Shown piece after piece: positions 22,165 to 39,784 of a stretch of 64,000 bases of DNA. The translations under genes and the position numbers were made by a program. Within the stretch, counting starts at the first letter, position 1. The number at the start of each line of letters is the position of its first letter. The DNA is from Curtobacterium herbarum. Lineage in GTDB: Bacteria; Actinomycetota; Actinomycetes; Actinomycetales; Microbacteriaceae. The notes under the pieces are model-generated. The model had not been told where the DNA came from. It ran no database searches and saw only the letters and a program-made list of their open reading frames with translations. The stretch spans positions 1,984,001 to 2,048,000 of the forward strand of contig NZ_JAFBBT010000001.1 in assembly GCF_016907335.1 (NCBI RefSeq). The letters are read 5' to 3'.

Positions 22165-23439
22165 TCAGGCCGGCGTCGACGTGAAGTACGCGTACAGGAT
22201 CGCCGCGATCACGTCGTAGCCGGTGTCGTTCGGGTGGATGCCGTCGGACATGTACGGGTTGTCCTTCGCCCCGGTCTGGCCGAAGTACGGCGGCACGTAC
22301 GCACCGAGGTCGAAGAACCCGATCGCGACTCCCGGGTTCGCGGAACGGAACGTGTTCACGGCCTGCTGCTGCGCGGCCCGGTACTTCGCCCACTCCGTCG
22401 CCGAGGCCGCGCCCAACTGGTAGGGCATGACCACGAGCAACGCGGAGGCCGGGCTCCGGTCGTGCACCAGGTCGAGGTAGTTGCGCGTCTGCTGCGTCAG
22501 GACCGCCGGGGTGACCTTGCCGTAGTCGTTCGTCCCCCACATCGACGTGATCAGGTCCGGGGAGAACCGACGGAGCGCGTCGGCCCAGCTGTCGTTGCCG
22601 TTGGCGGCCGACGACGCGAGCGCGAACCCCTCGGTCCGCGACTCCGACTGCGACGCTTCGAGGACGTGGAACCCGCCGCCCTCGTCGCCGTCGAAGAGCT
22701 GCCACCCCTCGACGAAGGGTTCGCCGCTGGCCCAGGTGACCGTCACGGTGTGCGTCGCGGAGGCCCGGGGCGGGCTGGTCCAGGTCTGCTCACCACTGGA
22801 CACGGCCGGCAGCGGAACCGTGGTGCCGTCGATGGTGATCGACACGGCGTCACGCGTGCTCGAGGTCGCGCGCCAGGCGAGCACGAGCGACGTGAAGCGC
22901 TGCGTGAACGAGAGCGACCGGACCCGGCTGCTCGTCAGGGCGACGGCACGCCGGCCGAGTCCGGACCGCGTGCTCCGGTCCCCCGCGTAGGTCGCGGAGC
23001 GCAGGTCGATCGCGGCACCGTCCGGCCCCGCGTACGTGACGTACGTCGCCGTCGCCGGCGGTGTCCGGACGGTGCTGTACTGCGAGCGAGCGGGGATGTA
23101 GTCCAGCCCGCCGGGCGCCTGTCCCGCACCGTTGCGGAGTCGTGCCCGCACCCGTGCCGGGTACCCCTTCTGCGGGTTCGCCGCGCCGAAGGCCTCGGTG
23201 ATCGAGTCACCCGCCGTGACGATGGTCGCGGTGCCGGCGGCGACCTTGCGGAAGAAGCCCGCCAGCGGATCGTTCGCCTGGTACGTCAGCCCGGACGGGA
23301 TGAACGGCTTGGTACCCGCCGCCGATGCCGGCGACGATGCCGCCCCGGTCAGGGCTGCTCCGCCGAGCGTGACGGCGGCTCCCTGCAGCAGACCTCGGCG
23401 CGAGATCCCTCGGCCGCTCTTCGAACTGTGATCCGTCAT
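22165..23439 (-). CDS. Secreted SGNH/GDSL hydrolase with Tat signal
   Basis: A 424-residue protein. The N-terminus carries a twin-arginine signal (GISRRGLLQGAAVTLGGAALTG) ending near ASAAG. The SGNH blocks are block I TIVTAGDSITEAFG with the nucleophile serine near residue 79, MWGTNDYG (block III, Asn) near 300, and SDGIHPNDTGYD with the Asp/His pair near the end. A beta-rich insertion sits between blocks I and III. It is probably an extracellular esterase or deacetylase acting on a polysaccharide or acylated sugar. It lies last in the fructan locus, 191 bases after the GH32 gene. ATG at 23439 has GGGGGAA just ahead and gives a proper Tat n-region. Confidence 0.82.
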   Translation of the reverse strand: MTDHSSKSGRGISRRGLLQGAAVTLGGAALTGAASSPASAAGTKPFIPSGLTYQANDPLAGFFRKVAAGTATIVTAGDSITEAFGAANPQKGYPARVRARLRNGAGQAPGGLDYIPARSQYSTVRTPPATATYVTYAGPDGAAIDLRSATYAGDRSTRSGLGRRAVALTSSRVRSLSFTQRFTSLVLAWRATSSTRDAVSITIDGTTVPLPAVSSGEQTWTSPPRASATHTVTVTWASGEPFVEGWQLFDGDEGGGFHVLEASQSESRTEGFALASSAANGNDSWADALRRFSPDLITSMWGTNDYGKVTPAVLTQQTRNYLDLVHDRSPASALLVVMPYQLGAASATEWAKYRAAQQQAVNTFRSANPGVAIGFFDLGAYVPPYFGQTGAKDNPYMSDGIHPNDTGYDVIAAILYAYFTSTPA

Positions 23440-23630
23440 GGTTCCCCCCAGGAACGTCGATGCGATGGTCACGGCACGGGCACGCTCCCTGCGCCCGACT
23501 CGACGTCGGTCGACAGCGGAGCCCCCCGTCCCACGCCGAGCCTAGGCGAGTCCGTGCCCGAGCGACAGACCGGTCCACTCCCCCGCGTGGCGGTCGGACC
23601 GCAGCGGCCACCTGCCCACCGCCCCGGGCG

Positions 23631-25226
23631 TCAGCGTCCGTACTCGCGGATGGTGATGCCGGTGAAGGTCGCGGACCCGCCGACGGCGTACAGCGAGACG
23701 CCGGTGTCCCCGACGTCGAAGTTCACCTGGTTCGACGACACGATGTGACCGGCATCGACGAACACCTCGACGCTCTGCGTGTCGACCAGGATCCGGAGGT
23801 GGACGGATCGGGCCGCCGTGTCGATGGGAGCGACTGCACGCGTGTACGGCGTGAGTGCGAACCCGGCACGGTCGGAGGGAGCACGGTCGACGTATAGATC
23901 CGCGCCGGACTTGCCGATGTCGGTGTGACGGGTCCCGTCGGCGGAGCGGCCGACCGAGACGCCGACGTCGGTGGCGTCGGTCCACGTGACGTCGAGCTCG
24001 ATCTCGTAGGCACGCCCGGTGTACGGCAGGACGGTGGACCCGTCGACGGTCTGGTCAGCGATCGGGATCGTGCGGGTCGCGGTGCCCCGGAGTGCTGCGA
24101 CGGGTGCGCTGAGGAGGGCGTACCGGCCGTCCGGCTGCTTCTCCAGCGTGATCTCACGGACGATGGAGTTCTGACCGTTGTAGCCGTCCGAGGTGTCGGT
24201 CGGGACCTGCCGGTTGGCGTACTTCCAGTTGTTCATCCAGCCGAGCCCGTACCGCTTCGTGGTCGGCGCCTCGTTCGACGGCCACGTGACCGCGGCGTAC
24301 CAGTCCCATCCCCAGTCGAGCCACTGGGGTGTGAGGTCGTCGGCGGTGAAGAACGAGCCGTCCCACGAGCCGGTCCAGTACGCGTAGGTGCAGGGCAGTC
24401 CCTCGTCGTACGCGTCCATGCTGCCGCTGAGGACCCAGTGCGTGGTGCCGTCGTCCGCGGTGATCTGGAACAGGTCCGGGCACTCGATGCCGCCCAGGTC
24501 GTGGTCGGGGTAGTCGAAGTTGCGCTGCAGGGTCCAGTCGATGAGGTTCTTCGACGTGTAGAGGGCGGCGTACCGCTGCCTGCCGATGACGCAGACCCAC
24601 TCGCCGCGGGCATCGTCCCAGGCGACCTTCGGGTCGCGGAACCACTCGGCGTTGGCGATCTCCGCATCGGTGGTCGCTGCGCGCCCGTCGGTGTTGACGA
24701 TGACGGGCTCCGGTCGGACGGTGAACGTGAAGCCGCCGTCGGTGGACCAGAAGAGGTACTGCTCCTGGTACTTCCGGACGCCTCCGGTCGGTCGGGTGGC
24801 GAGGGCGATGACCGCGCCAGCGCCGTAGCCGGCCGTGTCGTCGGTGTCGACCAGGGTGCAGCCGGTCCAGGTGGGGAGGCCGGTCTGGAGCGGGATGACG
24901 GTGCCCTGGAAGGCGAAGTCGACGCCATCGGTGGTGGACACGTGATCCCATCCGCCGTCGCCGTTGTCGACGTCGGAGTGCAGGTAGTAGAGCTGGTACG
25001 CACCGCGGGTGAACACCGGGCGCTGCGGGTCGGACAGCCATCCGGCGGGCGGGGTCATGTGGTATATCGCCCGGAACGAGGCCGCGGTCGCTCCCGCTGC
25101 CGCGGACGCCGGGAGGGACGCGGCAGCCGCGCGCGCTGCCTCACCGGGGGCGGTCGTCGCGAACAGCGCCAGCGCCCCGATCCCGGCGCCCTGGAAGAGC
25201 GCACGTCGTCGGAATTCAGAGGTCAT
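23631..25226 (-). CDS. Secreted GH32 enzyme, levan fructotransferase-like
   Basis: A 531-residue protein with a Tat-type signal (EFRRRALFQGAGIGALALFA). The GH32 five-blade propeller follows: the nucleophile block IYHMTPPAGWLSDPQRP near 54-70 (Asp in SDPQ), AEWFRDPKVAW near 195-205 (stabiliser Asp), and GIECPDLFQI near 246-255 (acid/base Glu). The C-terminal 130 residues form the usual beta-sandwich. The specific wording YHMTPP-GWL-DPQRP, GGWDHVSTTDGV and WLDWGWDWYAAVTWPS fits levan fructotransferases of the Arthrobacter type, which split levan to difructose anhydride IV by internal transfer rather than hydrolysis. I recall this resemblance; I cannot run an alignment. A plain levanase is the alternative. 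A 69-base gap separates it from the upstream sugar kinase gene. Confidence 0.82.
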   Translation of the reverse strand: MTSEFRRRALFQGAGIGALALFATTAPGEAARAAAASLPASAAAGATAASFRAIYHMTPPAGWLSDPQRPVFTRGAYQLYYLHSDVDNGDGGWDHVSTTDGVDFAFQGTVIPLQTGLPTWTGCTLVDTDDTAGYGAGAVIALATRPTGGVRKYQEQYLFWSTDGGFTFTVRPEPVIVNTDGRAATTDAEIANAEWFRDPKVAWDDARGEWVCVIGRQRYAALYTSKNLIDWTLQRNFDYPDHDLGGIECPDLFQITADDGTTHWVLSGSMDAYDEGLPCTYAYWTGSWDGSFFTADDLTPQWLDWGWDWYAAVTWPSNEAPTTKRYGLGWMNNWKYANRQVPTDTSDGYNGQNSIVREITLEKQPDGRYALLSAPVAALRGTATRTIPIADQTVDGSTVLPYTGRAYEIELDVTWTDATDVGVSVGRSADGTRHTDIGKSGADLYVDRAPSDRAGFALTPYTRAVAPIDTAARSVHLRILVDTQSVEVFVDAGHIVSSNQVNFDVGDTGVSLYAVGGSATFTGITIREYGR

Positions 25227-25235
25227 GGTCGGCTC

Positions 25236-25299
25236 CGGTTCGTGGTCGGGTGGTCATCGGTTCGTCTCGAGTGGTCGTCGGTTCGTCGCGGGTGGTCAT
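25236..25299. repeat. Three degenerate 21-22-bp tandem repeats between GH32 and kinase genes
   Basis: Copies begin CGGTTCGT and end GGTCAT or GGTCGT, at 25236-25257, 25258-25278 and 25279-25299. They fill most of the gap between the kinase stop and the GH32 start, and the last copy overlaps the end of the kinase gene. They may be replication slippage products or an mRNA processing spacer. Confidence 0.7.
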
Positions 25300-26216
25300 C
25301 GGCTGGTCACGGTCTCGGGCTCGGTCCCCGCGGGGACCAGGTCGTCGACGCTCGGCAGGTCCGCACCAGGCCGGGTGACGGTGATCGCCGCGGCACGGGT
25401 ACTGACCCGGCCGAGCTCGGTGAGCATCGACCGGCTGATCGGGCCGAACGTGCCGCCGTGGTGCTGCAGCTGCCAGATGAGCGTCGCCATGTAGCTGTCG
25501 CCGGCGCCGACGGTGTCGATCACGTCGACACGTTCGCCGGGGACCGACACCCGGTGGGTCGAGGTCGCCAGGAGGGACCCCGCCGCACCCGTGGTCAGGG
25601 CAGCGATCTGCACGCCGATCGCCAGGAGACGATCGAGGACGGTGTCCTCGGGCAGTCCCGGGTAGAGCCAGGCGGCGTCCTCGTCGGAGAGCTTCACGAC
25701 GTCGGCGATCGCTGCGAGTCGCTCGAACACGACGCGTTCGTCAGCGGCGCTGCCGAGGAGCGCGGGACGGATGTTCGGGTCGAACGAGACCGTCCCGCCG
25801 GCAGCCGCAGTGCGCCGGGCCAGTTCCGCCACCTGGCGCGCTCCGGGTTCGAGGAACGCGCCGATCGATCCGACGTGCAGCCATCGTGGCGTCTGCGGCA
25901 GCGCCGGCAGGTCCCACTCGATGTCGAACTCGTACCTCGGCTGGCCGTCCGGTGCGAGCCGGACGACCGCGGACGACGTGCGCGTCGCGCGGAACACGTC
26001 GTCGACGAGCCGGACGCCGGACGCCCGGAGGTGGTCGGCGATGCGGTGTCCCCGCGCGTCGTCCCCGAGCCACGTGGCGAACTCGACCGGCGCGCCGAGC
26101 CGGGCCAACCCGAGTGCGACGTTCGCAGGGCTCCCACCGGGGACTTCGCGTGCCTGCTGGTCCTGCACGACGTCGACCAGCGCCTCCCCCGCGACGGTGA
26201 TCGGGCGGCCGGTCAT
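25296..26216 (-). CDS. PfkB-family sugar kinase, probably fructokinase
   Basis: A 306-residue ribokinase-fold kinase. The first signature, VPGGSPANVALGLARLG, is at about 24-40 and the second, DTVGAGDSYMATLIWQL, at about 231-247, with the catalytic Asp in GAGD. A short lid and SFDPNIRP near 143 complete the fold. In this setting it would phosphorylate fructose released by the two cytoplasmic GH32 enzymes. ATG at 26216 overlaps the stop of the GH32 gene ahead by four bases, so its expression follows the importer operon. Confidence 0.88.
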   Translation of the reverse strand: MTGRPITVAGEALVDVVQDQQAREVPGGSPANVALGLARLGAPVEFATWLGDDARGHRIADHLRASGVRLVDDVFRATRTSSAVVRLAPDGQPRYEFDIEWDLPALPQTPRWLHVGSIGAFLEPGARQVAELARRTAAAGGTVSFDPNIRPALLGSAADERVVFERLAAIADVVKLSDEDAAWLYPGLPEDTVLDRLLAIGVQIAALTTGAAGSLLATSTHRVSVPGERVDVIDTVGAGDSYMATLIWQLQHHGGTFGPISRSMLTELGRVSTRAAAITVTRPGADLPSVDDLVPAGTEPETVTSR

Positions 26217-27631
26217 CGCTGCCCAGCCACGGTCACGGCGGTGCCGGTCAGCTCCCAGACCAGTGCCTCCGCGGGGGCCTCCACCGTCCAGGGCGGTGCC
26301 TGCTCGGGGTAGACGCGCGTGGTGACGGAGCGACCGGCGCTGGTGAACACCTCGACGACGGAGCCGTCCACCAGCACCCGCACCGCGGGCCGCTCCGCGG
26401 ACCGGTCGAACGGCGCTCGGACGACTGCCGGACGTCGATCGGCGCGACTGTCGCGGCTGGAACGGGACCGGTCGACGGTGAGGGTGTCAGCCTCCAGATC
26501 GATGCGGATGTCGAGGTACTCGGCCTCCGAGAACCGGACCAGGATGCTGCCGGTGACGGCGACCGGCAGCACGATCTCCACCTGCGCGCCGACCGTGGCC
26601 CCGTCGGCCGGCTCCGGCCGACCGGCGCGGAGGGCCTCGAGCGCGGGGTGCGGCTCGCTGCCGAGCCGCCCGTCCGCGAGCCACGTCCTGCGGGGCACGG
26701 AGATCGCGCCGGACCAGCCGACCTGCTCGGTCCACTCCTCGGTGCGGCCTTCGGTGACCCAACCGAAGAGCACCGGCCCCCACGAGCTCGTCCGCATCAC
26801 GGATGCCGCGTAGAAGTGCTGCCCGTCGTCGACCCTGGCGGGGTGCGGTACGCCGGTCAGCGGGATCGCGACGACGTCGCCCGGGCCGTGCGCGTGCGAC
26901 CAGGACGCCACGATGGCGACGTCGGTCCCGTCGATCCGGAGGACCTGGGGACACTCCCACCCTTCGCCCGTGTCGATGCCGTCGACCGTGGTGCGGGGCA
27001 TCGCCACCAGGTCACCGACGGAGGTCCAGGTGACGCCGTCGGCGGACCGGTAGTGACGGACGGACGCGGTCTGGTCGGCTGATGCCGCTCCGACGGCCAT
27101 CGACCAGCCGCCCTCGTCCTGCCAGACGAACGGGTCACGGAACATGGTGATCGCTTCGTCGGCGGACGGGTCGGCCACGACCTGCACGCCGGGGCCGTAG
27201 GTGTTGCCGCCGTCCGTGGACTCGGCGAGGAGCACGGACTGGAACGGACTGTGGTCGACCTTGCCCGAGTAGTAGGCGCGGACGGTGCCGTCGTGGAGCA
27301 CGGTGTTGCCGGACCACGCGCCTCCCGAATCAGCGCCACCCGGGACCGGGACGATGGCCGGTCGGTGCAGGGTCCAGTGCACGAGGTCCTCGCTGGTGGC
27401 GTGCCCCCACTCCACCGGGACCTCCAGGTCGACGCGGGGCCGGGACTGGAAGTACAGGTGGACCTGCCCACCGATGTCGACGGGGCCGTTCGGGTCGTTG
27501 ACGTACCCGCGGGGAAGCCTGACGTGGAACTGCGGGAGGTGGTGGTCGGTGGCGGCAGCGGGCAGCGCCGTGCGGACGGTGGTGGTGCCGGTGCCGGTGC
27601 CGGTGCCGGTGTCGGTGTCGGTGTCGGTCAT
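26213..27631 (-). CDS. Cytoplasmic GH32 beta-fructosidase
   Basis: A 472-residue enzyme without signal peptide. GH32 motifs are HLPQFHVRLPRGYVNDPNGP (nucleophile Asp in NDPNG near 44), TMFRDPFVW (stabiliser near 170), and GEGWECPQVL (acid/base Glu near 224). The beta-sandwich domain ends the protein with VLVDGSVVEVFTSAGRSVTTRVYP, a typical GH32C sequence. It should release terminal fructose from imported sucrose, levan oligosaccharides or anhydride products. Its first 20 residues are a Thr/Asp/Gly hexanucleotide repeat product, unlike its relatives. ATG at 27631 overlaps the permease stop by four bases, and the stop overlaps the kinase start. Confidence 0.9.
   Translation of the reverse strand: MTDTDTDTGTGTGTGTTTVRTALPAAATDHHLPQFHVRLPRGYVNDPNGPVDIGGQVHLYFQSRPRVDLEVPVEWGHATSEDLVHWTLHRPAIVPVPGGADSGGAWSGNTVLHDGTVRAYYSGKVDHSPFQSVLLAESTDGGNTYGPGVQVVADPSADEAITMFRDPFVWQDEGGWSMAVGAASADQTASVRHYRSADGVTWTSVGDLVAMPRTTVDGIDTGEGWECPQVLRIDGTDVAIVASWSHAHGPGDVVAIPLTGVPHPARVDDGQHFYAASVMRTSSWGPVLFGWVTEGRTEEWTEQVGWSGAISVPRRTWLADGRLGSEPHPALEALRAGRPEPADGATVGAQVEIVLPVAVTGSILVRFSEAEYLDIRIDLEADTLTVDRSRSSRDSRADRRPAVVRAPFDRSAERPAVRVLVDGSVVEVFTSAGRSVTTRVYPEQAPPWTVEAPAEALVWELTGTAVTVAGQR
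27584..27625 (-). repeat. Seven-copy hexanucleotide repeat at the GH32 N-terminus
   Basis: On the plus strand the unit GGTGCC occurs four times, then GGTGTC three times, without interruption over 42 bases. On the coding strand it gives alternating Thr with Gly or Asp just after the start codon. The six-base unit keeps the reading frame when copies are gained or lost, so it changes the length of the tail, not the frame. Confidence 0.9.
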
Positions 27632-28536
27632 CGTGACGACCCCGCCGTGACGCCTTCGATGAAGTACCGCTGGGCGAAGATGAAGAGCAGGACACTCGGG
27701 ATCATCGTCAGCACCACCCCGGCGAGGACGACCGAGATCGACCCGGTCCCGAGGTTGCCCTGCAGGCCGACCAGTCCGAGCGGCAGGGTGAAGGTGTCCT
27801 GCTGGTTGAGGAAGATCAACGGCCGGTAGTACTCGGCCCAGAAGCCCGAGAAGTTCAGGATCGCGAGTGTGGCGATCGCCGGGCTCGCCATCCGGGAGTA
27901 GACGTGCCAGAAGACGCCGAACTGGCTGGCGCCGTCGATGCGCGCCGCTTCGCCGAGCTCCTTGGGCATCTGCATGAAGTACTGCCGCATCAGGAAGGTG
28001 CCGAACGCACTGCCGAGGGCGGGGACGATCAGGGCGGCGATCGACCCGGTCAGACCGATGTCCTTGAGGATGACGAAGACCGGGATGATGATCGTCTGGA
28101 TCGGCACCATCATCGTGGCGAGGAAGATCCCGAAGATGGTGTTCTTGCCGGGGAAGCTGATCATCGCGAACGCGTAGCCCGACAGGGTGCAGGTGATGGT
28201 CTGGCCGACGACGATGAGCAGGGTGACGACGACGCTGTTGACGAAGAACTGTCCGATCGGGATCTGGTTGAACACCGCGGCGTAGTTGCTGAAGTCCCAG
28301 GACAGCGGGAGCCACTGCGGCGGGTTGTTGAACGACTCCGCCGGTGTCCGGAGCGACGTCGTCAGGGTCCAGAGCAGCGGCCCGAGGGCGAACACCGCGG
28401 CGAGCACCAGGATGATGAGCCCGATGACGCTGCCGACGGTGGCGGCGGGTCGCCGCCGGCGCACGATGTGGTCGATGCTCGGCTGCGCCACCGTCTCCGG
28501 ACTGTGCAGGGGGTTGATCGTGTCGGTGGTCGTCAT
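27628..28536 (-). CDS. Sugar ABC transporter permease (MalG type)
   Basis: A 302-residue permease with six membrane helices. The EAA loop is EAARIDGASQFGVFWHVYSRMASPAI near 196-221, matching carbohydrate-uptake type 1 permeases. The N-terminus has a short cytoplasmic arm, then LIILVLAAVFALGPLLWTL. The protein pairs with the MalF-type permease encoded just ahead (4-base overlap) and the lipoprotein. No ATPase is encoded in this locus; such transporters commonly share a housekeeping MsiK-like ATPase encoded elsewhere. Confidence 0.93.
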   Translation of the reverse strand: MTTTDTINPLHSPETVAQPSIDHIVRRRRPAATVGSVIGLIILVLAAVFALGPLLWTLTTSLRTPAESFNNPPQWLPLSWDFSNYAAVFNQIPIGQFFVNSVVVTLLIVVGQTITCTLSGYAFAMISFPGKNTIFGIFLATMMVPIQTIIIPVFVILKDIGLTGSIAALIVPALGSAFGTFLMRQYFMQMPKELGEAARIDGASQFGVFWHVYSRMASPAIATLAILNFSGFWAEYYRPLIFLNQQDTFTLPLGLVGLQGNLGTGSISVVLAGVVLTMIPSVLLFIFAQRYFIEGVTAGSSR

Positions 28537-29480
28537 TGGTAGAACACCAGCTTTCGTGCGGCGATGAACTGGACGGCGGTGATGATGCCGATGATGACCA
28601 GCAGGAGGATGGCGATGGCGGAGGCGAACCCGAACTGCAGGTTCTGGAACCCGGCCTGGTACATCGAGATGGTGGCCGTCGTCGTCGCGGTACCGGGGCC
28701 GCCCTTGGTCATGATGAACGGTTGGTCGAACAGCTGCATCGCGTTGATCATCGCGATGACGGTCGCGAACAGGATCGTTGGGCTGATCAGCGGGATCTTG
28801 ATCTGGAAGAGCGCGCGCCACGGGCCGGCGCCGTCGATGGAGGCGGCTTCCTGCACGTCCACCGGCACCGCCAGCAGCGCGGCGACGAACAGCACGAAGG
28901 TGAACCCGACCTGCTGCCAGACCACGACCATCACGATCGTGACCTTCGCCCAGAACGGGTCGTTCAGCCAGTGCGCCCCGGGCAGGCCGATCTCGTTGAG
29001 GTAGTAGTTGATGAGGCCGAACTTCGTGTCGAAGATGTAGCCCATGAAGATCGACACCGCGGCGGTCGACGCCAGGAGCGGCAGGTAGAACGAGGTGCGG
29101 AAGAACACCCGGGTGGCGTTGCGCTTCCGGTTGTTCGCCAGCACGGCCAGCAGCAACCCCAGGGAGATCTGCAGGACGACGATGGCGAGGGCCAGTCCGA
29201 TGGTGACGCCGAAGGACGCCAGGACAGGACCGTCGGTGAACAGCCGGACGTAGTTGTCGAACCCGACCCACCTGGGGCTGCTGATCACGTCCCACGAGGT
29301 GAAGGACAGTCCGAGCGACGCCAGGATGGGGACCAGGGTGAAGACGGCGACGAAGACCACCGCCAGCCCGATCATGAGGAAGCCGAAGGTGGACTCTCGT
29401 CGGCGGGCACGCTTGGCTGCTGGCCGGCGGGCCGCGACCTCGGCGGCCCGCCGGGTGGGTGTCCCGGTCGTCGCGGTCAC
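28533..29480 (-). CDS. Sugar ABC transporter permease (MalF type)
   Basis: A 315-residue permease with six helices. Its EAA loop, QEAASIDGAGPWRALFQIKIPLISPTI, is near 210-236. The N-terminal 30 residues are basic (RRPAAKRARRRES). It forms the heterodimeric channel with the next gene's product. GTG at 29480 overlaps the stop of the binding-protein gene (GTGA) and its own stop overlaps the next ATG. The order lipoprotein, MalF-type, MalG-type is the usual one for CUT1 systems. Confidence 0.93.
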   Translation of the reverse strand: MTATTGTPTRRAAEVAARRPAAKRARRRESTFGFLMIGLAVVFVAVFTLVPILASLGLSFTSWDVISSPRWVGFDNYVRLFTDGPVLASFGVTIGLALAIVVLQISLGLLLAVLANNRKRNATRVFFRTSFYLPLLASTAAVSIFMGYIFDTKFGLINYYLNEIGLPGAHWLNDPFWAKVTIVMVVVWQQVGFTFVLFVAALLAVPVDVQEAASIDGAGPWRALFQIKIPLISPTILFATVIAMINAMQLFDQPFIMTKGGPGTATTTATISMYQAGFQNLQFGFASAIAILLLVIIGIITAVQFIAARKLVFYQ

Positions 29481-30886
29481 GACGACGCCTGTGATGCGGC
29501 CTGCTCGATGTCGGCCTGCAGGCCGTCGAGTGCCTTCTTCGCGTTCCCGGAGGAGATCGCCTGTGTGGTGCGCTGGTTGAGCGCCGTCGCGAGGGCGTTG
29601 TAGTACGGCGGTGCCGAGATCGGCACGGAGTTGTCGAGCTGGTCGTAGAACACCGACCAGTGCTCCGGCCCCGTCGTGGCGTACCGGTCCGCGGTCATCA
29701 GGGACTTCTGCGCCGGCGTCGTCACGTTGCCCGGCCACAGCGCGTCGAAGCTCTCCGGCTGCACCATCAGCTTGATGACCTCGAACGCGAGGTCCTTCTG
29801 CTTCGACGAGTTGAAGATGCCGTACCCGCCCGCGCCGAAGAGCGACTTGTTGCTCTTCCACGTGGGGAACTCGACGACGTCGAAGCTGCCGTCCTGCATC
29901 CCCGCGTTGTGGAGTCCACCGGCCCAGAAGCCGCCGCCGATGGTCATGCCGATCCGACCGGAGGCCATCAGCCCCTGCAGGGTGGCGCCACCGCCGACGT
30001 CGGGCGAGGGGGACGCGCCGGACTTCTGCAGGTCGATGACGTACTGGAGCGCCTCGACGGCCGCGTCGGAGTTCGCCGTCGGGTCACCCCACTTCCAGCC
30101 GCCCTTGCGGCCGGTGACCCCGATCGGGTTGTCCGAGAACGCCTTGCTCTTCCACAGCCAGTCGCCGCCCGAGTACTTGCCCTCCTCGAGCAGGTTCCCG
30201 TCGTTGGCGTAGAGGAACGAGGTCCAGCTGCCCCAGAGGCGCACCACCCAGTCGAACGCGTAGGTGCCGCCACCGACCTTCGCCAGGCTCTCGGCCGAGG
30301 AGTGGAAGTCGTCCATCGACCACTTGCTCGTCGGACGGGACAGGCCGGCCTTGTCGAACAGGTCGGTCGAGTAGAACATGCTGCCCGCGTTGAAGCTGTC
30401 CGGCAGCGTGTAGAGGTGCCCCTGGTACATCGTCGACTCGAGCAGGACCGGGTGCGCGCCGGTGAAGTACTCGTGCAGATCCGACAGGTTCTTCGTGACG
30501 TAGTCGTCGAGCGGGGTGAGCAGGTTCTTCGACGCCAGGAGCTGTTGCCCCTCGGTCGCGACGCTGACGATGTCGGGGACGTCGCCCGAGGCGATCTGGG
30601 TGAGCACCTTGGCGAGGAAGTCGTTCCAGTCGGTGCCGTTGATCGCGGTGACCTCGAGGCTGGCCTTCTTGTCCAGTCGCTTGATCTTCGGCTCGATCGC
30701 CTTCTGCAGGGCAGTGGCAGCGCTCTGTTCGCCGAAGTAGAGCATCTTCACGGTGCCCGATCCGCTGCCCCCTCCGCCGCTGGTCGAGCAGGCGGCCAGC
30801 GAGCCGATGCCGGCCAGCGCGAGCCCGGCCCCGCCGAACTTGAACAGCGTGCGCCGGTCGATCGGTGTACTGAATCCGTTCGTCAC
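29477..30886 (-). CDS. Sugar ABC transporter substrate-binding lipoprotein
   Basis: A 469-residue family-1 extracellular solute-binding protein. The leader holds RRTLFKFGGAGLALAGIGSLAACS, with lipobox LAAC (Cys near 33) and an RR pair that may allow Tat export. A Gly/Ser linker follows. The fold's DVPDIVSVATEG near 112-123 and FPTWKSNKSLFGAGGYGIF near 340-358 match CUT1 binding proteins. Because the operon has fructan enzymes, the ligand is likely difructose anhydride IV, levanbiose or another short fructan. GTG at 30886 has GAGGAG six bases ahead. It is the first gene of the five-gene coupled operon and lies under the two LacI-type operators. Confidence 0.92.
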   Translation of the reverse strand: MTNGFSTPIDRRTLFKFGGAGLALAGIGSLAACSTSGGGGSGSGTVKMLYFGEQSAATALQKAIEPKIKRLDKKASLEVTAINGTDWNDFLAKVLTQIASGDVPDIVSVATEGQQLLASKNLLTPLDDYVTKNLSDLHEYFTGAHPVLLESTMYQGHLYTLPDSFNAGSMFYSTDLFDKAGLSRPTSKWSMDDFHSSAESLAKVGGGTYAFDWVVRLWGSWTSFLYANDGNLLEEGKYSGGDWLWKSKAFSDNPIGVTGRKGGWKWGDPTANSDAAVEALQYVIDLQKSGASPSPDVGGGATLQGLMASGRIGMTIGGGFWAGGLHNAGMQDGSFDVVEFPTWKSNKSLFGAGGYGIFNSSKQKDLAFEVIKLMVQPESFDALWPGNVTTPAQKSLMTADRYATTGPEHWSVFYDQLDNSVPISAPPYYNALATALNQRTTQAISSGNAKKALDGLQADIEQAASQASS

Positions 30887-30927
30887 GGTCGCTCCTCTCT
30901 GAGCGATGGTGGCCCCGACGAGCGGGA

Positions 30928-30942
30928 CCAATACGTATTTGT
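30928..30942. promoter_or_regulatory. LacI-type operator, copy 1
   Basis: The sequence CCAATACGTATTTG contains the perfect 10-bp palindrome AATACGTATT at 30930-30939. It lies 44 bases upstream of the binding-protein start codon. It is nearly identical to copy 2. The even-length palindrome with central CG is the expected form of a LacI/GalR-family operator. Confidence 0.85.
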
Positions 30943-30971
30943 GGCGAGCGTACACACGGCGGTCAGGGGAC

Positions 30972-30986
30972 GCAATACGTATTTGC
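30972..30986. promoter_or_regulatory. LacI-type operator, copy 2
   Basis: The sequence GCAATACGTATTTGC repeats the palindrome AATACGTATT at 30974-30983, 44 bp centre to centre from copy 1 (about four helical turns). It lies 36 bases ahead of the lacI-type gene start, so the regulator likely controls both its own transcript and the divergent importer operon, perhaps with looping or cooperative binding. Confidence 0.85.
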
Positions 30987-31019
30987 TTCTGGCATGATGA
31001 GCGCAACGAAGGAGGGTCG

Positions 31020-32063
31020 ATGGCGAGCCGTGAACGCACCACGCAGTCACACCGCGTCACGATGAAGGACGTCGCACGCCACGCAGGCGTGTCGCAGCCG
31101 ACCGTGTCGTTCGTGCTGAACGACCGCAGGGACGTCTCCATCGCGGAGGACACCCGAGCTCGGGTCCTCGAGGCGGCCAGGGAACTGAACTTCCAACCGA
31201 ACCGAGCGGCACAGTCGCTCCGGTCGAACCGGTCGTACACGGTCGGGGTCATCGCCGACCGACTCGTCGCCCAGCCGTACGCCGGCCACATCGTGCTCGG
31301 TGTGCAGCAGGCGGTGCAGGAGGCGGGCTACGTCTGCTTCGTCATCGAGACGGCGCAGACCACGGACGGCGGCAAGGCAGCGGTCGAGAACCTCGTCCAG
31401 CAAGGCGTCGCCGGGCTCATCTACGCGGCACCCGGTCCGGAGTACGTGACACCGATCGACGGCCTCGAGCGCGTCCGGACCGTGTACGTCAACTGCTTCC
31501 CGTCCGGCGACGCCCCCGCCGTCACCGTCCTGGCCGACGAGTTCCAGGGCGGCCACGACGTGGCCGCCGCCGTCTTCGCCGCCGGACACACCGACATCGC
31601 GTTCCTCGGTGGCCCGGAGGACGACTACGCCTGCCGGGAACGCCGACGTGGACTCGAGCAGGCCGCGGCGGACGCGGACGTCTCGACCGACACCATCCAC
31701 GTCGCGTTCGGCACGTTCCAGGTGGGCTCCGGCTACGACCTCGCGATGGAGGTCCTGACGACACTCCGTCCGACGGCGATCATCTGCGGGAACGACCGCA
31801 TGGCCGTCGGCGCACTAATGGCCGCGCAGTCACTCGGCATGCGGTGCCCCGAGGACATCAGCATCGTCGGGTTCGACGACCAACCCGACCTCGCCGACCA
31901 GATGCACCCGCCGTTGACGACCGTCGCCCTGCCGCACCAGCAGATGGGCTACGACGCCGGAACGCTGCTGCTCGCAGCGACCGAGCAGCCCGGCCGGCAC
32001 CTCGTGCCCTGCGACTACGTGCCACGCAGCTCGCTCGCATCCCCACGACCCGAAGGAACCTAG
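31020..32063 (+). CDS. LacI-family transcriptional regulator of the fructan locus
   Basis: A 347-residue LacI/GalR repressor. The DNA-binding head is VTMKDVARHAGVSQPTVSFVLNDRRDVSI near 13-41, followed by the hinge helix NRAAQSLRSNRS near 62-73. The rest is the periplasmic-binding-protein-like sugar domain, with TVGVIADRL and, late, TAIICGNDRMAVGAL and DISIVGFDDQPDLA. The effector is probably the imported sugar or its product. ATG at 31020 has AAGGAGG four bases ahead; the start at 30906 would cross both operators. The downstream GH32-like gene begins one codon after its stop. Confidence 0.92.
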   Translation: MASRERTTQSHRVTMKDVARHAGVSQPTVSFVLNDRRDVSIAEDTRARVLEAARELNFQPNRAAQSLRSNRSYTVGVIADRLVAQPYAGHIVLGVQQAVQEAGYVCFVIETAQTTDGGKAAVENLVQQGVAGLIYAAPGPEYVTPIDGLERVRTVYVNCFPSGDAPAVTVLADEFQGGHDVAAAVFAAGHTDIAFLGGPEDDYACRERRRGLEQAAADADVSTDTIHVAFGTFQVGSGYDLAMEVLTTLRPTAIICGNDRMAVGALMAAQSLGMRCPEDISIVGFDDQPDLADQMHPPLTTVALPHQQMGYDAGTLLLAATEQPGRHLVPCDYVPRSSLASPRPEGT

Positions 32064-33536
32064 GTGGCCCTCCAGCGCAGCACCCACTTCCAGCCAGTGA
32101 ACGGCTTCGTCGGGGACGTGATCCCCTTCGAGCACGACGGCACAGCCTGGCTGTTCTACCTGCTCGACGAGCGCCCCGACGCCCCACCGCTCGAACGGAG
32201 CACGGGGATGCCGTGGGCTGCCGTGACCACGACCGACTTCGTGGACTTCGAGGACCGTGGCGTGGTGCTGCCGTCCGGCGGACCGGACGCCAGCGACTTC
32301 GACTGCTACACCGGCAGCGTCGTCCAGGACGACGCCGGGACCCTGCACCTCTTCTCCACCGGCCACAACCCGCGCATCAGGACCGACACCGACGCCGGAC
32401 CGAAGGACGCTCAGGTCGTCTGTCACGCGACCTCCACCGGCGACCTCACCGACTGGACCAAGCACCCCGACTGGGACCTCCCCGCTCTCGCCGGCTACTC
32501 CCCCGAGGACTGGCGGGACCCGTTCGTGTTCCGCCCGGCCGCCGACCGCCCGTGGCAGATGCTGCTCGCGACGCGGCGGCCTGCCGAGCCCCACCGGCGC
32601 TCCGGACTCGTCGCCCGGCTCGAGTCCGACGACCTGGTCACGTGGCGCGATGCCGAGCCGCTCTGGGAACCCCACCGCTTCATCACCCAGGAGTGCCCCG
32701 ACGTCTTCCAGTGGGGCGACTGGTGGTACCTCGTGTACTCGGAGTTCTCCGACGCGTTCTGCACCCGGTACCGCGTCGCGACGTCACCGGACGGGCCGTG
32801 GCTCGCTCCGACGGACGACACCGTCGACGGACGGGCCTTCTACGCAGCGAAGACGGTCGCGCTCGGCGACGCGCGCTACTTCGTCGGCTGGATCGCGACG
32901 AAGGACGGCCGCCGCGACGGAAGCGCCTGGCAGTGGGCCGGCACCATGGCGACGCTGCAGGCGCACCAGCGCCCGGACGGGTCGCTGCGGTTCGACCTCC
33001 CGGAGACGGTGAAGGCCGCCTACACGCACGAGTCGGACGTCACGGCACAGCTCGAACCGCTGAACGGCGCCGATCGGACCGTCGGGAACGGCGCGGCGTC
33101 CCGGTACGCGTCGTGGCTCGGCCCCGAGCTCCCCGACGAGGCGCTCGTCGTCGCCGACATCGAGCTCCACGCCGGCACGGCGTCGTTCGGGCTGCTCCTG
33201 CGCTCGAGCGACGACGGCGAAGCGGGGTACGCGCTCCGCCTCGAGCCCGGACGCAGCCGAGTCGTCGTCGATCGCTGGCCGCGCGGCAGCACCGGGACCG
33301 AGCAGTGGCAGATCCTCGGCGACGTCCCGCACGCCGTGGAACTGGAACGTCCGGTGGAGCTCGCTCCGGGGCCGCACCGGATCGAAGTCCACCTCGACGG
33401 TGACGTCTGTGTCGCGGTCGTCGACGGCGCCGTCGCGTTGAGCACCCGTCTCTACGACCGACCGGCCGGTCGCGTGGGCCTCTTCACGCAGGACGGCGCG
33501 ATCACACTGGAGCGCCTGTCGATCCGCACCCGCTGA
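32064..33536 (+). CDS. Cytoplasmic GH32-like enzyme with altered nucleophile motif
   Basis: A 490-residue protein without signal peptide. Where standard GH32 has W-M-N-D-P-N-G, this one reads HFQPVNGFVGDVIPFEHDG (residues about 8-26), so the nucleophile would be the Asp of GDVIPF. The other GH32 landmarks are present: EDWRDPFVF near 149-157 (stabiliser) and QECPDVFQWG near 210-219 (acid/base). The C-terminal beta-sandwich is complete (IEVHLDGDVCVAVVDG). This variant group includes enzymes on unusual fructose sugars; hydrolysis of difructose anhydride IV is a reasonable guess from context. GTG at 32064 directly follows the regulator's stop codon, with AAGGA ahead, so it is translated with the regulator. 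Confidence 0.78.
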   Translation: MALQRSTHFQPVNGFVGDVIPFEHDGTAWLFYLLDERPDAPPLERSTGMPWAAVTTTDFVDFEDRGVVLPSGGPDASDFDCYTGSVVQDDAGTLHLFSTGHNPRIRTDTDAGPKDAQVVCHATSTGDLTDWTKHPDWDLPALAGYSPEDWRDPFVFRPAADRPWQMLLATRRPAEPHRRSGLVARLESDDLVTWRDAEPLWEPHRFITQECPDVFQWGDWWYLVYSEFSDAFCTRYRVATSPDGPWLAPTDDTVDGRAFYAAKTVALGDARYFVGWIATKDGRRDGSAWQWAGTMATLQAHQRPDGSLRFDLPETVKAAYTHESDVTAQLEPLNGADRTVGNGAASRYASWLGPELPDEALVVADIELHAGTASFGLLLRSSDDGEAGYALRLEPGRSRVVVDRWPRGSTGTEQWQILGDVPHAVELERPVELAPGPHRIEVHLDGDVCVAVVDGAVALSTRLYDRPAGRVGLFTQDGAITLERLSIRTR

Positions 33537-36627: not shown

Positions 36628-37002
36628 TCACCGGTCGCAGTCGGTGCACCGGCCGTGGACGGTGAGTGTCTCGGTCTGCGCGAAGAAGTCGGCGTCCTGG
36701 ATCACCGCGACGCGTCGGAGCGGTACCTCCTCGATCCGTCCGCACTCGTCGCAGACGAACAGGTCGTCACCCGGCAGCAGGTAGACCGCTCCGCCCGGCA
36801 GGACGACCTCACGGACCCGGCCGACCGCGACGAGGCGGTGCACCTCCCGGTAGACGGTGGACAGGCTGATCGGGTCGCCGGCGCTCCGCAGTGTCCGGTA
36901 CAGCTCCTGCACGGTGGCGCGGCGAACCGTCCGGAGCGCCACGAGGACGCACTCGGTGTGTCGACGTCGCGCGCGGTGCGCGACCGTGACGGCGGGAGCC
37001 AT
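36628..37002 (-). CDS. Fur-family metalloregulator, probably Zur
   Basis: A 124-residue Fur-family repressor. The winged helix is in the first 70 residues (LRTVRRATVQELYRTLRSAGDPISLSTVYREVHRLVAVGRV). Two CxxC pairs follow: VCDEC near 88 and CTDC near 120, the structural zinc site. The H/E sensory residues are partly replaced, and the protein is short, so the metal is not certain. Zinc is favoured because the divergent operon encodes a zinc/manganese-type importer and the boxes between look Zur-like. ATG at 37002. Confidence 0.82.
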   Translation of the reverse strand: MAPAVTVAHRARRRHTECVLVALRTVRRATVQELYRTLRSAGDPISLSTVYREVHRLVAVGRVREVVLPGGAVYLLPGDDLFVCDECGRIEEVPLRRVAVIQDADFFAQTETLTVHGRCTDCDR

Positions 37003-37021
37003 GCCTCCATCCTCTCCCGAG

Positions 37022-37040
37022 AATGAGTATCGCGATCATT
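37022..37040. promoter_or_regulatory. Zur-like box 1
   Basis: AATGA (37022-37026) and TCATT (37036-37040) are inverted around an inner ATCGCGAT palindrome (37029-37036). It lies 20 bases ahead of the fur-type gene start and may autoregulate it. Confidence 0.55.
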
Positions 37041-37082
37041 TGGGTTCGCAAAGGGGGCCGCCGGTGCCCTACGGTTCCGATC

Positions 37083-37095
37083 GAGAATGGTTCTC
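37083..37095. promoter_or_regulatory. Zur-like box 2
   Basis: GAGAA-TGG-TTCTC is a perfect dyad, 40 bases upstream of the importer lipoprotein GTG. It resembles the actinobacterial Zur pattern TGAAAA-n3-TTTTCA, with an added CA after the right arm. Binding by the adjacent Fur-family protein under zinc-replete conditions is the likely role. Confidence 0.7.
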
Positions 37096-37134
37096 ATCAC
37101 AATCGGGCCCAGTGCCCTGGACAGGACGGATGCC

Positions 37135-38052
37135 GTGCGCATCAACAGATTCATCGCCTCGGGCGTCGTCGCCGCAGTGACTGCCGCAGCCCTCACCGGG
37201 TGCTCCTCCGCCGGGGCCGGTGACAGCGGGAAGATCACCGTGGTCGGCGCCGAGAACGAGTACTCCGACGTCGCCGCACAGATCGGCGGGAAGTACGTCA
37301 CGGCATCGGCCGTCATGAGCAACCCGAACACCGACCCGCACACGTTCGAGGCCAGTGCCAGCGTGGCGAGGGAGCTCTCCGCCGCGCAGTTGGTGATCCA
37401 GAACGGCGTCGGGTACGACGACTTCATGGCCAAGCTCGAGAAGGCCTCGCCGAACTCCGCCAGGAGGGTCATCACCGCGCAGACCGTGCTCGGGCTCCCC
37501 GACAGCACCAGGAACCCTCACCTCTGGTACGACCCGAAGACGATGCCGGCCGTCGCCGCGGAGATCGCCGCCGACCTGGAGAAGCTCGACCCGGCCCACA
37601 AGACGACGTTCGAGCAGAACCTCACGACGTTCGACGACTCGCTGCACGCGTGGACCTCCGCGCTCGCCGCCTTCAAGAGCGCACACGGCGGGACCCCCGT
37701 CGCCGTGACCGAACCGGTCGCGGACTACGCCCTCGAAGCAGCGGGCGTCGACGTCGAGACACCGTGGTCCCTGCAGGCAGCGATCATGAACGACACCGAC
37801 CCGTCGCCCCAGCAGTCCGCTGCGCAGGACTCCCTGTTCACGGCCAAGCAGGTCAAGGTCTTCCTCTACAACCAGCAGGTGACCGACTCGATCACGGCGC
37901 ACTACCTGTCGCTGGCACACGCGAACGATGTCCCGGTGGTCGGCGTGTACGAGACGATGCCGACCGGCTACACCTACCAGCGGTGGATGGAGGCTGAAGT
38001 CGCGGCGCTCTCGAAGGCCGTCACCGACGGCACCTCGACGGAGAAGCTGTGA
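37135..38052 (+). CDS. Metal ABC transporter substrate-binding lipoprotein (ZnuA/TroA type)
   Basis: A 305-residue cluster-9 binding protein. The lipobox is LTGC with Cys near 23. Metal ligands are visible in SNPNTDPHTFE near 64-74 (first His), NPHLWYDP near 127-134 (second His), and the late acidic VYETMPTG. TroA-type proteins bind zinc or manganese. No histidine-rich loop is present, which is less typical of high-affinity zinc binders, so manganese cannot be excluded. GTG at 37135 is in frame behind GGACGGA; the nearby ATG at 37130 is out of frame. Its stop overlaps the ATPase start. Confidence 0.88.
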   Translation: MRINRFIASGVVAAVTAAALTGCSSAGAGDSGKITVVGAENEYSDVAAQIGGKYVTASAVMSNPNTDPHTFEASASVARELSAAQLVIQNGVGYDDFMAKLEKASPNSARRVITAQTVLGLPDSTRNPHLWYDPKTMPAVAAEIAADLEKLDPAHKTTFEQNLTTFDDSLHAWTSALAAFKSAHGGTPVAVTEPVADYALEAAGVDVETPWSLQAAIMNDTDPSPQQSAAQDSLFTAKQVKVFLYNQQVTDSITAHYLSLAHANDVPVVGVYETMPTGYTYQRWMEAEVAALSKAVTDGTSTEKL

Positions 38053-38861
38053 CCACCGCTGCAGCGGTCGCCGCCGGTGGCGTCGTCACCGTGCGCGACC
38101 TGCGTGTCGTCCTCTCCGGGCGGGCCGTCCTCGACGGCGTCGACCTCGACGTCGCGGCAGGCGACTTCGTCGGCCTCATCGGCGCGAACGGCGCCGGCAA
38201 GACCACGCTCCTCCGCGCGTTGCTCGGCGTGGTCACGGTGACCAGCGGCACCGTCCGTCGACCGCAGCGTGCTGCCGACGTCGGCGGCATCGGCTACCTC
38301 CCGCAGAAGACCGTGCTCGATCCGGATGCGCCGCTGCGAGCCCGGGACGTCGTGGCGCTCGGACTCGACGGCGGTCGCCTCGGCCTCCCGCTCCGGCGGC
38401 GGCGGACACTCGCGCTCGTGGACGAGACGCTGGAGCGTGTCGGCGCGACGGCGTTCGCGGACCAGCGGATCGGCGAGCTGTCCGGCGGCCAACAGCAGCG
38501 CGTCCTGCTCGCGCACGCGCTGATCAGTCAGCCGGCGCTGCTGCTCCTCGACGAGCCCCTGGCGAACCTCGACCCGGCGAGCGCCGCCGACATCGTCGCG
38601 CTCCTGCACACCATCCGGCGCGACCACGGCGTCGGGATCGTCCTCACCGCGCACGACATCAACCTGCTCCTGCCGGTGCTCGACCGCGTCGTCTACCTCG
38701 CAGACGGTCGAGCGGTCACCGGCTCCCCGGCCGACGTCATCCGCGAAGACGTCCTCTCCCGCCTCTACGGGCGACCGATCCGGGTCATCGACGCCGACGG
38801 ACGCCTCGTCGTCCTCGCCGACGACCGCTCCGCCGTCCCCGCGGGAGCGGTCCGCCGATGA
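38049..38861 (+). CDS. Metal ABC transporter ATPase
   Basis: A 270-residue ATPase: Walker A GANGAGKTT near 44-52, Q-loop YLPQKT near 85, signature LSGGQQQR near 146-153, Walker B LLLLDEP near 166-172, H-loop LTAHD near 198. The insertion after Walker A is short as in ZnuC/MntB-type proteins. GTG at 38049 overlaps the lipoprotein stop and the stop overlaps the permease ATG, so all four importer genes are translationally linked. Confidence 0.93.
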   Translation: MTTAAAVAAGGVVTVRDLRVVLSGRAVLDGVDLDVAAGDFVGLIGANGAGKTTLLRALLGVVTVTSGTVRRPQRAADVGGIGYLPQKTVLDPDAPLRARDVVALGLDGGRLGLPLRRRRTLALVDETLERVGATAFADQRIGELSGGQQQRVLLAHALISQPALLLLDEPLANLDPASAADIVALLHTIRRDHGVGIVLTAHDINLLLPVLDRVVYLADGRAVTGSPADVIREDVLSRLYGRPIRVIDADGRLVVLADDRSAVPAGAVRR

Positions 38862-39784
38862 GCGTGTCCGTCGCCGTCGCGCTGTCGGGTTTCGTCACCA
38901 GTCCGACGGTCCACTCCGCGCTCGTGGTGGGTGGGTTCGTCGCCGCGGTCACCGGTGTCGTCGGGGTCTTCACGGTGGTCCGTGGGCAGTCGTTCGCCGG
39001 ACACGCCCTCGCCGACCTGGGTGCCGTCGGCGGCGCCGGCGCGTTCCTCGTCGGCATCAGCCAGCTCTGGGGGTTCGTCGGTGCGGGCGTCGTCGCCGCA
39101 CTCCTGATGGAGGCCATCGGGACGCACCGGCTGAAGGGCCGGGACGTCGCCACCGGGGTCGTGTTCGCGTTCGGGCTCGGCCTGACGGCGCTGTTCCTGT
39201 ACTGGGACACCACGATCGGAGGCTCGAGCAACGCGGCCGTGTCCGTCCTGTTCGGCTCGTTGTTCGTCATCGATGCCTCCGTCGTCCCCCCGGTGGTGCT
39301 CCTCAGTGTGGTCGTGCTCCTGCTCGTCGGCACCACCTACCGCTGGCTGCTGCTGGCGTCCGTCGACGAGGACCTGGCCGTCGCCCGCGGGGTGCCGGTC
39401 CGGCTCGCCGGGCTGGTGTTCCTCGTGGCACTCGCCCTCGCGGTGGAGCTCTCGTCCCTGACCATCGGCGCGATCCTCTCGACCGCGCTGCTGATCGGTC
39501 CGGCGGCCACCGCCCTGCTCCTGACCCGTCGGTTCGGTGTCGCCGTGCTCCTCGCTGCCGGCATCGGCGTCCTCGAGACGTGGGTCGGCTGCCTCATCGC
39601 GTACGAGAGCTACTACTGGGCCGGGAAGGACGGGAACTGGCCGGTCAGCTTCTGCGTCGTGGCCCTGGTCCTGGTCGTGTACGTCGGAGCCCGGTTCGCC
39701 TCCCGCATCGCCCGGAGGAGAACGGCGTCCCGACCGGTCATGCACGCCCCGCGGATCCTCGCCGACGCCGGAAGGGTCGGCTGA
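38858..39784 (+). CDS. Metal ABC transporter permease 1 (ABC-3 family)
   Basis: A 308-residue permease of the ABC-3 (ZnuB/TroC) family with about eight helices. Landmarks are VVRGQSFAGHALADLGAVGGAG near 42-63 (the conserved DGLGHAxxxG-like region) and LTIGAILSTALLIGPAATALLLTRR near 210-234. It is followed by a second permease of the same family, so the importer has two non-identical channel subunits, or one is a homodimer alternative. ATG 38858 overlaps the ATPase stop. Confidence 0.9.
   Translation: MSVSVAVALSGFVTSPTVHSALVVGGFVAAVTGVVGVFTVVRGQSFAGHALADLGAVGGAGAFLVGISQLWGFVGAGVVAALLMEAIGTHRLKGRDVATGVVFAFGLGLTALFLYWDTTIGGSSNAAVSVLFGSLFVIDASVVPPVVLLSVVVLLLVGTTYRWLLLASVDEDLAVARGVPVRLAGLVFLVALALAVELSSLTIGAILSTALLIGPAATALLLTRRFGVAVLLAAGIGVLETWVGCLIAYESYYWAGKDGNWPVSFCVVALVLVVYVGARFASRIARRRTASRPVMHAPRILADAGRVG

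Follow-up and report, generated by a model that had tools for sequence, protein, structure and literature searches.

A levan locus of Curtobacterium pairs a secreted levan fructotransferase with an intracellular GH32 enzyme, a candidate difructose anhydride IV hydrolase

Studies of levan fructotransferase (LFT) have mostly treated it as a means of producing difructose anhydride IV (DFA IV), a cyclic beta-2,6 difructose. No named gene for the opening of its ring came up in the literature on DFA IV covered by our search; most subscription papers lie outside that search, and an absence in print is not established by it. The routes for DFA I and DFA III, in contrast, are presented as three-stage pathways that monopolise the sugar (PMC8605356, PMC11538131), and the Blautia clusters for DFA III are described there as a ring opener, a GH32 fructosidase and ABC transporters, with a sugar kinase in two strains (PMC11538131). 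Here we analyze a locus of nine open genes (22165-33536) in a 64,000-nucleotide stretch of Curtobacterium herbarum (contig NZ_JAFBBT010000001.1, positions 1,984,001 to 2,048,000), hereafter called the window, whose own numbering is used throughout; we propose for it a levan route whose steps stand in the order given below because they are modelled on the DFA I and DFA III routes. We find that the secreted LFT of this locus and a cytoplasmic GH32 enzyme, designated GH32C, occur together in nearly all closely related loci.

The LFT and its intracellular partner

The LFT gene (23631..25226, minus strand) encodes a GH32 enzyme with a signal of the twin-arginine translocation (Tat) type, RRRALFQG, the twin-arginine motif being read by eye. 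Over residues 53-530 its product matches the solved LFT (PDB 4fff) with 833.8 bits; among PDB matches the solved endo-levanase LevB1 follows, with 354 bits. Similarity to the solved LFT is full-length, both GH32 domains are present, and the protein keeps the Asp of the GWLSDPQRP, FRDPK and GIECPD motifs, the sole motif change being C to S in GWLCDPQRP (PDB 4ffh is the same chain as 4fff, with Asp to Asn at GWLCDP). Comparison of 23631-25226 with solved enzymes therefore upholds the assignment of the secreted Tat-type GH32 made in an earlier note on this DNA; identity as an LFT is strongly supported and can be taken as safe, with DFA IV as the predicted product.

A scan of GTDB contigs gave 73 other loci: 36 actinobacterial LFT loci (at least 57% identity) and 37 distant ones (28-33%), mostly of Bacillota and on a different branch. 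Up to 10 kb was fetched on each side of every locus, less in L017 and L023. GH32C was found in 33 of the 36 LFT loci; in the three exceptions (L006, L026 and L028) the contig breaks off on that side, and L028 seems to come from genome G056, which carries GH32C on another contig. In Arthrobacter nitrophenolicus SJCon (L013:8180-9584), GH32C is in three pieces, owing to frameshifts or sequencing errors. On the distant branch a GH32C-like match occurs in only 3 of the 37 loci (L053, L055 and L067), at 29-38% identity. The association also holds at the genome level: among 299 genomes of the family, 11 have LFT (at least 65% identity) and all 11 hold GH32C, against 32 of 299 overall (GH32C at E<=1e-20; Fisher p 3.6e-12, relatedness ignored).

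In 14 of the 33 loci, the fetched stretch shows no GH32 match besides LFT and GH32C (13 by script; the other is L013, where the third piece belongs to GH32C), and in 11 Arthrobacter-type loci the two genes are divergent, with 218-417 bp between the matches. Outside the Curtobacterium type, permeases are only 25-37% identical to those of the window, and of two substrate-binding proteins (SBPs) read there, one matches the window SBP at 28% over 151 aa and the other has no match. Importer and regulator of those loci are of another lineage and, because they differ while LFT and GH32C stay together, the latter two are the conserved pair.

GH32C (32064..33536, plus strand) begins with a GTG immediately after the stop codon of the LacI-family regulator gene. 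It belongs to an endo-levanase-like branch of GH32: among solved structures, the endo-levanase BT1760 is closest to it (152 bits by sequence, to 6r3r), and a profile built from 37 sequences of its family gives 223.5 bits to BT1760 and 87 to the next molecule. GFVGD stands where GYVNDPNG is found in the second cytoplasmic GH32 of the locus, GH32B. Nucleophile, stabiliser and acid/base, equivalent to Asp41, Asp169 and Glu221 of BT1760, are invariant in 63 of 63 rows, in all of which the equivalents of the pocket-floor residues Thr104 and Cys222 (BT1760 numbering) are also kept. No signal peptide was seen by eye in 78 rows (17 of them repeats of others); the VGD motif is mostly reached about 13-20 residues into the protein, and where a few rows (for example, L081) begin with a longer lead, that lead is not hydrophobic. 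One 842-aa protein (P0029) carries LacI and GH32 domains in a single chain, like a fusion of LacI with GH32C.

A proposed three-stage route and its rivals

An extracellular cyclising enzyme, an importer, an intracellular fructosidase and a kinase are all present by homology, and a three-stage route from levan to fructose phosphate seems to us rather probable. LFT, exported via Tat, would act on levan and release DFA IV; a Tat-exported lipoprotein and two CUT1 permeases, powered by an ATPase encoded elsewhere, would import it; GH32C would hydrolyze one of its two beta-2,6 bonds to yield levanbiose, which GH32B would split into two fructoses for phosphorylation by a PfkB kinase; and a LacI-family regulator on paired operators would switch both transcripts. 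Genes, gene order, operator sites, LFT homology, the LFT-GH32C pairing and the missing GH32C signal are observed; the reactions, the transported sugar and the inducer are predicted from them.

GH32C, rather than GH32B, is proposed as the ring opener on chemical grounds, because O6 of each fructose of DFA IV is bound; subsite -1 of the opener should hence tolerate a substituted O6, as in an endo-levanase, while exo-fructosidases close their pocket round an unsubstituted fructose. A GH32 enzyme in this role would suit the all-beta 2,6':6,2' ring of DFA IV. BT1760 does not cleave levanbiose (PMC6560043), and this would explain the need for GH32B alongside GH32C. We infer that GH32C is the strongest candidate for the role of DFA IV-opening hydrolase.

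Several observations weigh against so narrow a role. Among 29 family genomes with GH32C (at least 45% identity), 15 have no LFT of at least 45%; three further genomes with GH32C (G036, G042 and G113) hold only an LFT-like protein of 49-53%, and LFT-like proteins of 45-48% occur without GH32C in three (G023, G115 and G164). (A second copy of an LFT-like protein of this 45-48% class is present in L029.) A class-wide draw of 394 genomes contains six with GH32C at E<=1e-60: the window genome (G000), G518 (LFT, 63%), G659 (LFT-like, 53%), and three that are without LFT (G079, G142 and G409). Placed on the GH32C tree, the LFT label needs at least 10 changes (shuffled mean 16.6), six of them forced by supported branches, which indicates that LFT was gained or lost many times along this tree. 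No alignment column separates the GH32C of LFT-bearing genomes from that of LFT-less ones, the best reaching 0.41 of 0.84 bits in 60 rows (three LFT-like rows left out). GH32C is also unlike BT1760 at two positions, Gln239 to Phe228 and Ile72 to Trp51, both invariant in 63 of 63 rows; this correspondence was mapped by hand on the GH32C-BT1760 alignment, Gln239 lying in loop 3 and Ile72 at the end of loop 1 of BT1760. Finally, loci with only two GH32 genes show no linked second fructosidase, so that GH32C would need to perform both steps there, or an unlinked enzyme would help. GH32C is therefore not tied to LFT, and a wider substrate range that takes in levanbiose and short levan oligomers would fit equally; given its occurrence in many LFT-less genomes, other short beta-2,6 fructosides may be among its substrates. 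The proposal of the earlier note that the motif-variant GH32 opens the anhydride emerges strengthened by the constancy of this intracellular partner of LFT and by the endo-levanase nature of its nearest solved relative, and stays an inference.

These observations lend some weight to a different account, which we nevertheless hold to be rather unlikely, in which GH32C, as a general cytoplasmic enzyme, would hydrolyze short beta-2,6 fructo-oligosaccharides taken up from outside and would not be a DFA IV hydrolase, LFT would be one supplier among several, and DFA IV would either be opened by GH32B or be lost by leakage. Besides the 15 LFT-less genomes and the lack of a distinguishing column, it would accommodate genome G178, where GH32C lies beside a different secreted GH32 with the same operators, and the fact that linear levan is the substrate of the nearest solved relative. 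It accounts less well for the 33 LFT loci with enough flank, none of which lacks GH32C, and for the 14 among them whose fetched stretch shows no other GH32 able to open the ring; moreover, GH32B resembles exo-type enzymes, which by the chemical reasoning above should reject a substituted O6. That the secreted enzyme has turned into a levanase, making the locus a plain operon for levan or fructan hydrolysis with no cyclic intermediate, is very improbable. Specificity shifts readily among GH32 enzymes, Bacillota hold related proteins of 28-33%, and an endo-levanase is the second-best solved match of LFT, but the 833.8-bit match spans the whole solved LFT, against 354 bits to LevB1, and the motifs are identical except for the single C to S change.

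A further variant would add a step to the route, the stripping of acyl groups from levan before LFT acts, by the secreted SGNH/GDSL hydrolase encoded next to LFT (22165..23439, minus strand; Tat-type signal SRRGLLQG; Pfam Lipase_GDSL_2, 61.7 bits). Adjacency to LFT on the same strand and the Tat-type signal speak for it, as do homologues beside a LacI-like gene (24-26% identity) in G043 and G115 and near CUT1 permeases in G007. We nonetheless consider it improbable: a 191-bp gap separates the two genes, none of the 73 other loci shows a match in its fetched stretch, and homologues are present in 11 of the 299 family genomes and in none of the six other Curtobacterium of that sample. This distribution does not support the polymer deacylase that the earlier note had suggested, and it led us to reject the hydrolase as a member of the conserved module; it is, as far as its distribution tells, a local neighbor. 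One C. flaccumfaciens protein (P0127) is 85% identical to it, and in searches by sequence and by profile the structures matched were confined to short, generic ones of the GDSL type and to designs of the same kind.

To return to DFA IV as the imported sugar, five LFT-less genomes (G214, G225, G029, G002 and G085) have exactly two GH32 matches each, both without a signal as far as read; the fructosidase frame of G002 leaves about 20 residues before the match, and the G225 genome is 86% complete. In each of the remaining ten there are at least three GH32 match rows, some of them weak or gene pieces, and signals were read in part of these genomes. Because no signal-bearing GH32 is seen in the five, they could hardly attack the polymer with GH32 and would have to import something small, which gives them the look of scavengers; DFA IV from neighbors fits, and levan oligomers fit too. 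A bolder reading, which we put forward tentatively and with somewhat less than even confidence, is that GH32C founds an intracellular endo-levanase-like GH32 subfamily that is the missing DFA IV hydrolase, and that DFA IV, meant as a private food, is stolen by these five (G214 being of the same genus), which combine GH32C, an importer and a fructosidase with no secreted GH32, while producer operons of other Curtobacterium took in their own Tat translocase to export LFT and SBP.

Gene order, regulation and export

The window belongs to a genome of 3.5 Mb in a single contig. Two divergent transcripts start from the gap 30887-31019, and the five minus-strand genes from SBP to PfkB are coupled by four 4-bp overlaps, followed by gaps of 69 bp (PfkB-LFT) and 191 bp (LFT-SGNH hydrolase). 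All nine genes are present and open, and the inventory and coordinates of the earlier note proved correct, as did its reports of five genes joined by 4-bp overlaps, of a single control region and of an importer without ATPase, no ATPase gene being found within the locus. Its term 'self-contained' holds apart from the ATPase, which is encoded elsewhere. The same gene set is found in Curtobacterium loci L004, L005 and L035, with 71-98% protein identity.

The SBP is a lipoprotein (29477..30886, minus strand; SBP_bac_1, 97.5 bits) with the twin-arginine signal RRTLFKFGG...LAAC, and both twin arginine and lipobox are conserved in seven Curtobacterium-type loci. Next to it lie CUT1 permeases of the MalF/UgpA type (28533..29480, minus strand; BPD_transp_1, 64.1 bits) and of the MalG/UgpE type (27628..28536, minus strand; BPD_transp_1, 67.9 bits). 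Use of an ATPase encoded elsewhere is common in actinobacteria; this importer probably borrows one likewise, and one gene with a MalK-type OB domain lies away from the locus (G000 C1:473556). GH32B (26213..27631, minus strand, start set by the 4-bp overlap; Pfam GH32N, 166.5 bits) is a cytoplasmic beta-fructosidase of the ordinary invertase type, whose best PDB match is the Thermotoga maritima beta-fructosidase 1uyp (108 bits); repeated 6-bp units at its start (27600-27631) encode the N-terminus MTDTDTDTGTGTG. The PfkB-family kinase (25296..26216, minus strand; Pfam PfkB, 122.7 bits) is fructokinase-like, its best NCBIfam match being the PRK09434 fructokinase with 138.4 bits, below the family cut-off of 450.

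The whole genome shows no GH32 match besides LFT, GH32B and GH32C, and a search of it for GH68 (levansucrase) gave no match. We therefore ruled out levan made by the same cell, and the levan eaten by this bacterium is probably made by other organisms. By Pfam, the nine locus proteins show no carbohydrate hydrolase family other than GH32, apart from GH43, which overlaps weakly with GH32C; no search for GH91 or GH172 was extended to the remainder of the genome.

The LacI-family regulator (31020..32063, plus strand; Pfam LacI 61.2 and Peripla_BP_3 120.4 bits) is the presumed binder of two identical 13-mers, CAATACGTATTTG, in the SBP-LacI gap at 30929..30941 and, 44 bp further on, at 30973..30985 (both given on the plus strand). 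No further genome site was found at up to one mismatch, a third match being the opposite strand of the first site. A similar pair occupies the same gap in seven related loci (L004, L005, L035, L107, L108, L109 and L110). Additional sites occur in G031, one at the start of a secreted 856-aa GH32 whose two best solved relatives are exo-inulinases, and in G178, two upstream of a secreted 846-aa GH32 assigned by Pfam scan only. Secreted GH32 enzymes of about 850 aa (L183:4333-6903, L109:5354-7894) have an insert between the two GH32 domains and lie on the GH32C side of the locus, with the same operator in front. The operator core A.TACGTA.T was found 0 times in 906,138 bases of other-type loci; Arthrobacter-type loci carry different repeated LacI-like sites of the TAAAGCGTTT type (by eye, five loci). 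It looks as if the operators mark a conserved fructan regulon, with LacI as the protein that would bind them.

Twin-arginine signals were read by eye in LFT, SBP and SGNH hydrolase, those of the latter two not having been described in the earlier note; two other-type SBPs (of a Microbacterium and of G029) are without twin arginine. Between PfkB and LFT, L005 (L005:8583-10011), L006 and L035 carry a TatC gene, and the window has no such set. L005 holds in addition TatA (53.2 bits) and a 108-aa gene that overlaps the LFT start, has no Pfam match and by eye resembles the TatB-like gene of L109, where TatC, TatA and the TatB-like gene lie at L109:7961-9232. Two TatC genes are present in G031 (same sequence as L005) and in G105, where the second likewise adjoins the cargo gene, and one in G214, G163, G257, G295 and the window genome, where it lies far from the locus. 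In G178, which has no LFT, GH32C has a TatC (55.6% identity) next to it, together with TatA and with a TatB-like gene that scores 20.5 bits against a cut-off of 21; in this genome the secreted GH32 is without twin arginine and the SBP has one. The locus TatC of Curtobacterium shares 72-82% identity with the genus's other TatC and for that reason looks like a duplicate. Among the fetched loci of other genera searched, none has TatC beside LFT. A dedicated Tat was considered as a rarity and rejected, since by our count a second TatC is present in 36 of the 299 family genomes.

Two observations concern other parts of the window. Imperfect direct repeats of about 21 bp lie in the PfkB-LFT gap (25227-25295), at the place where sister loci hold Tat genes, and a Fur-like regulator adjoins genes for a metal-binding lipoprotein and a permease (36628-39784), probably for Zn or Mn uptake as read from the sequence.

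Comparison with known systems

If the proposed route is true, the path from levan would be closed down to fructose phosphate and the use of two cytoplasmic GH32 enzymes explained; GH32C would offer one defined enzyme to clone for DFA IV opening, with a clear assay, and a producer-scavenger game around a cyclic sugar would be directly testable in sequenced strains.

The LFT of the window is a further example of a known enzyme type. It is like the solved LFT of Paenarthrobacter ureafaciens (PDB 4fff-4ffi, EC 4.2.2.16) in GH32 family, full-length match and catalytic motifs, and differs in being read together with an importer, a regulator and intracellular enzymes. GH32C shares catalytic triad and pocket floor with BT1760 of Bacteroides thetaiotaomicron (6r3r, 6r3u); BT1760, however, is bound to the cell surface (PMC5245892) and works on the polymer, whereas GH32C has other residues in place of Gln239 and Ile72 and carries no signal peptide. 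As for export, the extra TatC of Bacillus subtilis serves PhoD, and in tatAdCd-phoD a Tat translocase is likewise encoded beside its cargo and expressed with it (PMC6708511, PMC3068169); in the sister Curtobacterium the Tat genes are embedded in a sugar operon, with a TatB-like gene among them. The plan is the same as in the routes by which Blautia and Arthrobacter use DFA III, with a GH91 DFA-IIIase, a GH32 fructosidase and an ABC transporter; these share the import of a cyclic difructose, its internal opening and a fructosidase (PMC11538131, PMC8605356), and in Arthrobacter an external cyclising enzyme too, as in the window locus (PMC8605356). There the ring opener is a GH91 enzyme acting on an alpha/beta ring of the inulin type; here a GH32 enzyme is proposed to act on an all-beta ring of the levan type, and this candidate GH32 ring opener would be the new element in the known three-stage plan.

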